Shown here piece by piece: positions 21,596 through 22,522 of a stretch of DNA of 64,000 nt. How positions within the stretch are numbered: position 1 is the stretch's first letter; every line of letters starts with the position of its first letter. The notes under the pieces are model-generated. The model was not told where the DNA came from. It saw nothing but the letters and a program-made list of their open reading frames with translations, and ran no database searches. Both the position numbers and the translations under genes were made by a program. The stretch comes from an uncultured Pseudomonadales bacterium (lineage in GTDB: Bacteria; Pseudomonadota; Gammaproteobacteria; Pseudomonadales; Azotimanducaceae), in the NCBI GenBank assembly GCA_937921865.1, contig CAKZWF010000035.1:1-64000 (forward strand), read 5' to 3'.

Positions 21596-22156
21596 TCACA
21601 GCTGTCCTTCCGGTCCTTCAAGCAGGGTTTTCGCTGCAGGTACACCCATCTCTTTCAGGTTGCTCACCAAAGCCTGCCCTGCCGTGCTGGGATTGACCTG
21701 TTTGTCGATTTTCGCAATCGTTCCCTGGCCGTCAATGTAGTAGGTCCAGCGTTTTGCATAACCCATCGGACTCAGCACGCCATAGGCTTTACTGACAGAC
21801 TTATCCACATCGGACAGGATTGGAAAGGTCGCGTCATTTTTTTCCGCGAAGCCTTTGTTATCTTCCGGCTTGTCGACACTGGCCATGAAGTATTCAACGT
21901 CGAAGTTTCTGATTTCCCGGTCACTGTCACGCAGCGCCTTGCATTCAATAGTTCAGCCGCCGGTGAACGCTTTGGGAAAGAAGGCCACAACCACCCACTG
22001 GCCGCGCAGTTCGGAAAGTGTATGGGAGTTGCCATCAGAACCCGGCAGAGTCCAGTCAGGCGCGAGGTCGCCAACGCCTGGTTCAGCGTGAGCGGGCAGT
22101 GACGTCAGCGTCAGCGTTGCCAACAGGGCAATCGTAAAGGTCATGATTCTTGGCAT
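21596..22156 (-). CDS. Bcp-like peroxiredoxin, candidate selenoprotein (in-frame TGA = Sec68)
   Basis: Reading TGA 21953-21955 as selenocysteine gives a 186-residue exported thiol peroxidase. The signal peptide is [20 protein letters not shown], ending PAHA. Then come [31 protein letters not shown], residue 68 (TGA), TIECKALRD, and a full AhpC/TSA tail ([31 protein letters not shown]). In Cys homologues the residue at position 68 is the peroxidatic cysteine (TGGCT pattern); a Cys four residues later could resolve it. Start ATG 22154-22156 has an ideal GAAGGAGAGG. A SECIS-like hairpin follows the TGA. The alternative is a nonsense mutation, but 118 intact, conserved codons downstream argue against decay. 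Confidence 0.82.
21919..21938 (-). promoter_or_regulatory. Bacterial SECIS-like hairpin after Sec TGA
   Basis: On the minus-strand mRNA, 14 bases after the TGA, a 7-bp stem (GG, then CGCUG pairing with CAGUG and CC) with one bulged A closes a five-base apical loop CGUGA. The loop lies 22-26 bases from the TGA with a G among its first two bases. This fits the general bSECIS model, which needs a short stem with an apical G at roughly 16-37 bases. It is a prediction by eye only. Confidence 0.6.
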
Positions 22157-22228
22157 AGGCCTCTCCTTCAATTGGATCATGGGAATACGCAGCATACTGC
22201 GCTTCGGCGTGAGCAGCACGTGAAGGAT

Positions 22229-22462
22229 CTATCGCCCAATGAGCGGTGCCAGCATTTTTTCCAGGCCGTTGACCTTGATTTCATACATCACCGCCATGCG
22301 CCGTCCGAGCTGACCTTCCGGAAATCCCTGGTTGTGGAACCACACCAGATAGGGTTCCGGTAACTCAATCAGACGGCGACCCTGATAGCGGCCAAAGGGC
22401 ATAACCTGATTGACAATTCTGATCAGTTCTTCCGAGTCGCCGAGATCTGCAGGTTCGTCCAT
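22229..22462 (-). CDS. DUF3820 family protein
   Basis: A 77-residue cytoplasmic protein with the family core MPFGRYQGRRLIELPEPYLV, then WFHNQGFPEGQLGRRMAVMYE. The role is not established; the family was linked to quorum-regulated virulence factors by name only. ATG 22460-22462 is directly preceded by GAGG; a TTG twelve bases earlier is an alternative start. It is on the same strand as the peroxiredoxin gene, 72 bases upstream of it. Confidence 0.8.
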   Translation of the reverse strand: MDEPADLGDSEELIRIVNQVMPFGRYQGRRLIELPEPYLVWFHNQGFPEGQLGRRMAVMYEIKVNGLEKMLAPLIGR

Positions 22463-22522
22463 CCTCAGCCGCAACCCCGCGCCACGACCGACAGAGTCGG
22501 AAAGATCAGAGCCTGGGCAGGA

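Follow-up and report, generated by a model that had tools for sequence, protein, structure and literature searches.

An in-frame UGA at the peroxidatic position of an apparently exported peroxiredoxin marks a selenoprotein candidate in an uncultured Pseudomonadales bacterium

Analysis of a 64,000-nucleotide stretch of DNA from an uncultured Pseudomonadales bacterium (this whole stretch is referred to below as the window) indicates that an apparently broken peroxiredoxin gene is, judged from its sequence and that of its relatives, a well-supported selenoprotein candidate. We estimate the probability that the UGA at codon 68 of this gene encodes selenocysteine (Sec) at roughly 94%. An earlier note on the same DNA had proposed that the TGA replaces the peroxidatic cysteine and is read as Sec, and this proposal is now supported by the exchange of Cys and TGA codons among homologues, by the selA, selB, and selC genes of the source genome, and by a conserved hairpin downstream of the TGA.

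The gene lies on the minus strand, which the earlier note had left unnamed, at positions 21596–22156 and would encode 186 residues including Sec68. As read from the sequence, it begins with an ATG (22156–22154) preceded, six bases 5′, by a Shine-Dalgarno-like AAGGAG (22163–22168, minus strand), and it ends with a TGA (21598–21596, minus strand) that is in the same frame as the internal TGA (21953–21955, minus strand). The internal codon interrupts the frame at residue 68, after which the frame remains open for 118 further codons. Thus, the Bcp-like frame with a single TGA, the intact continuation bearing the family motifs, and the good ribosome binding site described in the earlier note are all present: P61 to T65 (21962–21976, minus strand) form, together with residue 68, the PxxxTxxU catalytic motif, and R136 (21749–21751, minus strand) is presumably the catalytic arginine, a role we assume from the peroxiredoxin family. 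The hydrophobic N-terminal extension is predicted to be a Sec-type signal peptide (residues 1–24, 22085–22156, minus strand) with an A-H-A end. On the same strand, 72 bases upstream, a PF12843 QSregVF_b protein (109.3 bits) is encoded at 22229–22474, and the next gene beyond it encodes a DUF4124 protein. No functional link from either neighbor to the peroxiredoxin was found, and at E≤1e-5 none of the other 169 loci has either of them next to the gene; the downstream open reading frame has no Pfam match. Within the window, an Rfam search returned nothing at the gathering score and ARAGORN called no tRNA gene.

The read-through protein scored 111.7 bits against the PF00578 AhpC-TSA profile (cut-off of 26), and its best NCBIfam model, the PrxQ/Bcp-type NF006960, gave 86.1 bits, which is below that model's cut-off of 140. 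The predicted structure (pLDDT of 90.8) displays a thioredoxin-like peroxiredoxin fold that most closely matches the structures of BCP/PrxQ and AhpE (Z about 23). In this model, residue 68 is located near the start of a helix comprising residues 66–77, with Cys72 (21941–21943, minus strand) one turn further on. The gene product is accordingly assigned, as a prediction, to exported BCP/PrxQ-AhpE-like peroxiredoxins, with Sec as its peroxidatic residue.

We searched 195 related genomes with the protein and obtained 99 matches at E≤1e-37. The codon aligned to the TGA was read in 90 of these loci and was TGA in 49, TGC in 32, TGT in 9, and no other codon in any; the match listing shows no TGA for the nine matches left unread. 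A scan of genome contigs confirmed 520 relatives, and the best 80 of the 520, which were kept, have TGA (60), TGC (14), or TGT (6) at codon 68. By record title, all but one of these 80 are metagenome-assembled Gammaproteobacteria, Pseudomonadales, or Proteobacteria (including K189A, HTCC2089, OM182, and Pseudohongiella), the remaining one being Allopusillimonas soli, which carries the Cys form. Together, the two sets comprise 170 loci with 109 TGA codons, 61 Cys codons, and nothing else. Proteins already present in the first set account for 42 of the 80 loci from the contig scan; among the 127 distinct proteins, the codon is TGA in 75, TGC in 39, and TGT in 13. P61, T65, residue 68, C72, and R136 are invariant in two alignments (22 and 45 sequences), and the TGA therefore sits at the peroxidatic position, where the Cys anticipated for homologues is indeed found.

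One relative (G055) has two copies of the gene (L045 and L081), one of which is identical over its readable length to the copy (L057) in another genome (G030), probably reflecting mixed strains or assembly contamination. Six relatives also contain weaker peroxiredoxin matches with one internal TGA each in frames of 152–201 residues (G084:C17:640666, G016:C6:71902, G047:C9:17176, G055:C89:4093, G022:C101:25176, and G100:C237:4427), which perhaps represent a second, separate Sec peroxiredoxin.

Fourteen bases past the TGA, the transcript can form the hairpin GGCGCUG-CGUGA-CAGUG(A)CC, predicted to be a bacterial SECIS element (21919–21938, minus strand). It has the apical CGUGA and the seven pairs given in the earlier note, plus one bulged A, and its core of five pairs spans 21922–21936 on the minus strand. 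A short hairpin of the form GCUG-CGUGA-CAGY follows the TGA in the TGA loci. To compare the two forms of the gene, identical 51-base segments and segments containing N were removed, leaving 69 distinct TGA and 52 distinct Cys sequences. Column 20 (C) and columns 22–32 (CUGCGUGACAG) are invariant in the 69 TGA sequences, and the pair between columns 21 and 33 is G-U in 42, G-C in 25, and A-U in 2. At the codon level, all 109 TGA loci encode residues 75–77 by CTG-CGT-GAC and none of the 61 Cys loci does, and the Ser78 codons of the TGA set are restricted to AGT or AGC. Leaving aside Sec68, Met, and Trp, every other column in which one residue occupies at least 93% of the 69 TGA rows is encoded by two or more codons. 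The background usage in 46 of the same genes (L048, L061, and L081 were dropped because of N or duplication) is 37.7% CTG for Leu, 13.9% CGT for Arg, and 53.6% GAC for Asp. In the Cys set, Arg76, where it is retained, is encoded by CGC (11), CGT (5), CGA (3), or CGG (1), and Asp77 by GAC (12) or GAT (8). The five core stem pairs are formed in 99.7% of TGA-set cells versus 46.9% of Cys-set cells.

Because the stem is nearly invariant, it offers no covariation to back the hairpin: in no pair were both partners altered, and shuffling gave an equally good score in 217 of 500 cases. The folding energy of the hairpin in the source gene is ordinary (z = −0.92, with 33 of 200 shuffles folding at least as well). 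With energy unexceptional and covariation absent, the support comes from synonymous-codon conservation, and the conserved hairpin immediately 3′ of the UGA that serves as a selenoprotein criterion is found here by sequence conservation, not by covariation. A covariance model of the hairpin, applied to the source genome, scored this site at 74.3 bits and the next at 15.8 bits (150 of 2915 candidates scored). In scans with stricter filters, in which 14–15 candidates per genome were scored, 12 of 390 genomes from the order matched, with eleven in two families and a weak twelfth (26.5 bits) outside them; among 398 genomes from the phylum, only the source genome and one weak match (27.1 bits) were recovered, and no peroxiredoxin was seen by eye near the latter in the locus ORF listing. 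In bacterial SECIS elements the loop lies 16–37 bases after the UGA and has a G early in the loop, a rule that the position of this hairpin fits.

The lack of compensatory changes in the stem and its ordinary stability would also be expected if the hairpin were not a SECIS and the frozen codons were kept for an overlapping signal, for translational pausing, or by a constraint on the protein. We regard this as improbable. The freeze is synonymous, and among degenerate conserved columns it affects only codons 75–77, which lie in the stem and loop; it is also absent from 61 of 61 Cys loci, including three Cys groups placed among the Sec rows, and the hairpin lies where the SECIS rule would put it.

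The source genome (4.27 Mb in 103 contigs, 89.7% complete) contains a tRNA-Sec gene (selC, 71.8 bits, over the cut-off), which ARAGORN also calls as tRNA-SeC with a TCA anticodon, as well as selB (411 bits) and selA (530 bits), all three clustered at C4:2316–7089. The earlier note had named these genes and selD as those to look for, and selD is the one missing from this incomplete assembly: no match exceeded the cut-off, and the sole match below it (68.6 bits, positions 34–258) may, we guess, be ThiL. In contrast to this assembly, selD was found in each of the three genomes of the same genus that were searched, with matches of more than 357 bits each (G001:C235, G002:C33, and G003:C56) that contain one internal TGA, so that SelD itself seems, from these sequences, to be a selenoprotein in the source genus. 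Since three same-genus genomes have the gene, its absence is most simply read as a gap in the assembly. If selD were truly lost, Sec might be inserted in the relatives while decoding is impaired in this bacterium and the protein is not made. The missing match in the source genome is what such a loss would produce, but an assembly at 89.7% completeness in 103 contigs, the selD genes of the same-genus genomes, each with its own TGA, the long and open selA and selB frames, a selC over the cut-off, and the intact hairpin of the gene leave little room for it. A second candidate selenoprotein was observed in the source genome, a thioredoxin-like frame from position 1375 of L201 (contig C65) with a TGA at L201:1627–1629. 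The TGA falls in a UxxC motif (FIFFRSAVWUPPC), and a hairpin is predicted downstream of it (GCAGCU-GGUCG-AGCUGC); the frame probably ends at its next TGA, which lies 298 codons further along.

Among the 195 relatives, selB exceeded the cut-off in 101. It was detected in 40 of 48 TGA-form genomes versus 32 of 41 Cys-form genomes (Fisher p = 0.59), in 34 of 35 versus 29 of 35 when genomes at least 90% complete are considered (p = 0.11), and in 29 of 29 versus 29 of 34 at 92% completeness or more (p = 0.056). The eight TGA-form genomes of the 48 that had no selB over the cut-off are all 91% complete or less. Because selB is frequent in Cys-form genomes too (32 of 41), its co-occurrence with the TGA form is weak evidence when taken alone.

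Two further explanations have next to no support left. A lone TGA in an intact frame does resemble a recent nonsense change in one genome, but a pseudogene or base-call error yielding only a 67-residue fragment is hard to reconcile with intact downstream motifs, with synonymous sites frozen just past the TGA, with the complete lack of TAA or TAG at this codon in the 170 loci, and with the recurrence of TGA here in 75 distinct proteins, a finding that also served as an indirect test of the sequencing error considered in the earlier note. Decoding of the UGA as another residue such as Trp, or read-through by a near-cognate tRNA, is all that the open frame formally needs, but homologues have Cys here and never Trp, the same gene terminates with TGA, a tRNA-SeC with the anticodon TCA is encoded in the genome, and the frozen hairpin occurs only with TGA.

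With regard to localization, 68 of the 69 distinct TGA sequences and 51 of the 52 distinct Cys sequences begin with a hydrophobic extension, and an AxA-like end was identified within these extensions in 63 and 47 sequences, respectively. The hydrophobicity threshold of 1.8 is unspecific by itself, as the mature core already reaches a median maximum of 1.94. L076 and L085 show no clear hydrophobic N-terminus by this measure, possibly owing to a wrong start. Overall, these N-termini make it quite likely that the peroxiredoxin is exported from the cytoplasm via a signal peptide.

The protein was compared with related structures and with known Sec-containing families. BCP/PrxQ proteins (PDB codes 3drn, 3ixr, and 5iiz) share its fold (Z of 22–23) and also have a second Cys further along the helix that bears the peroxidatic residue, but they carry Cys at the peroxidatic position in place of the Sec predicted here. 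In PrxQ, the resolving Cys of this helix is found five residues past the peroxidatic one. The present protein departs from this spacing, with Cys72 four residues after Sec68, and its U-x3-C arrangement contrasts with the C-x4-C of the Cys-containing PrxQ-like protein encoded in the same genome (L199:1492–1947). AhpE of Mycobacterium tuberculosis (PDB codes 1xxu and 4x0x) has a similar fold (Z of 22.9) and the highest identity to solved structures among the matches listed (33%–36%); it is a 1-Cys enzyme according to the title of its entry, with Cys instead of Sec, and the alignment reveals no second Cys in the helix. Two other families combine a peroxiredoxin-like protein with Sec. PrxU of Eubacterium acidaminophilum, which shares the peroxiredoxin fold and is reportedly a Sec peroxiredoxin described by Soehling in 2001, is represented by an NCBIfam model named accordingly (NF040737, 233 positions), against which our protein scored 50.6 bits, well short of the cut-off of 270. 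The Prx-SUH thiol peroxidases (NF045827) are likewise a peroxiredoxin-like selenoprotein family, and the protein scored only 19.7 bits against a cut-off of 298; Prx-SUH proteins carry a CxxU motif according to available extracts of PMC13188914.

By analogy with established bacterial selenoprotein biology, SelB bound to the hairpin would deliver Sec-tRNA(Sec) to the UGA, so that translation continues past this codon rather than ending after 67 residues. The N-terminal signal peptide would then send the protein across the inner membrane. As the fold and the invariant residues suggest, Sec68, activated by T65 and R136, would reduce a hydroperoxide and become a selenenic acid, after which a selenenylsulfide probably forms between Sec68 and Cys72, which is one helical turn away; an exported thiol partner may then reduce this bond. 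We lean toward, but hold with some reserve, the view that Cys72 resolves Sec68 within the helix.

The history of the exchange was approached with a quick tree of 121 distinct sequences, in which the residue-68 column was masked and a midpoint root was assumed. Only four changes between the Sec and Cys states are needed on this tree, compared to a mean of 39.6 after shuffling. The well-supported branches force at least two changes, with 54 of 118 inner branches unresolved. The simplest story that fits these sequences would be that Sec arose once from an ancestral Cys form and reverted three times, with root and direction assumed. The hairpin codons differ in every Cys row, including the three Cys groups that fall among Sec rows.

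In 17 of the 109 TGA loci, corresponding to 11 distinct places, selB lies directly upstream of the peroxiredoxin gene on the same strand at a distance of 26 to 907 bases, and selA lies further upstream in eight of the 17; none of the 61 Cys loci has this arrangement. With each distinct protein counted once, the adjacency is seen in 11 of 75 TGA versus 0 of 52 Cys proteins (p = 0.003, with relatedness ignored). On the tree, the 11 places are confined to two clades. A broader and more tentative proposal, to which we give somewhat less than even odds, is that these proteins form a distinct class of exported selenoperoxiredoxins with an intrahelical U-x3-C pair, which would have arisen from a Cys ancestor by one Sec gain in marine Pseudomonadales and undergone about three Cys reversions with decay of the hairpin; on this view, given the position of the gene directly behind selB in two clades, an envelope peroxidase may be a main client that keeps the Sec machinery in these bacteria.

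Sec-containing peroxiredoxins with a TxxU motif are already known from marine metagenomes, where they are abundant, and the kind of enzyme is therefore not new. According to available extracts, the Sargasso Sea set contributed 43 sequences (PMC1088965), and GOS, where a peroxiredoxin also adjoins SelW in some reads, contributed 253 (PMC2398784); elsewhere, Sec peroxiredoxins are filed under PF00578 or COG1225 in reviews (PMC13188914 and PMC9312934, in part), and five Cys-to-Sec conversions of peroxiredoxins had been counted earlier (PMC1794560, in part). The marine metagenome proteins resemble ours in Pfam family, in the TxxU Sec, and in coming from uncultured marine bacteria, and our gene family is probably among them, although the portions of these sources available to us name no organisms for the class and mention neither export signals nor a second Cys. 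The expectation in the earlier note that a periplasmic Sec peroxidase would be notable is thus borne out in part: published descriptions of Sec peroxiredoxins go back to 2001, and these enzymes are plentiful in marine waters (PMC1088965 and PMC2398784, in the extracts available), while the apparent export and the U-x3-C pair, whose roles are presumed, are less ordinary. Judged by titles and abstract openings, the papers listed in searches of the open-licence PMC literature describe no exported Sec peroxiredoxin and not this family in these clades, and the accessible parts of that literature yielded no description of the export signal, the U-x3-C pair, or the selB-prx neighborhood; the consulted part of PMC12013277 likewise has nothing on an exported Sec peroxiredoxin or this family.

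Ordinary annotation would truncate this gene at 67 residues. The closely related Sec and Cys forms, with the recoding signal frozen in the former and decayed in the latter, offer a natural experiment for weighing the costs and benefits that selenium brings to a peroxidase. If the predicted export is true, Sec chemistry would be placed in the cell envelope of marine Pseudomonadales.
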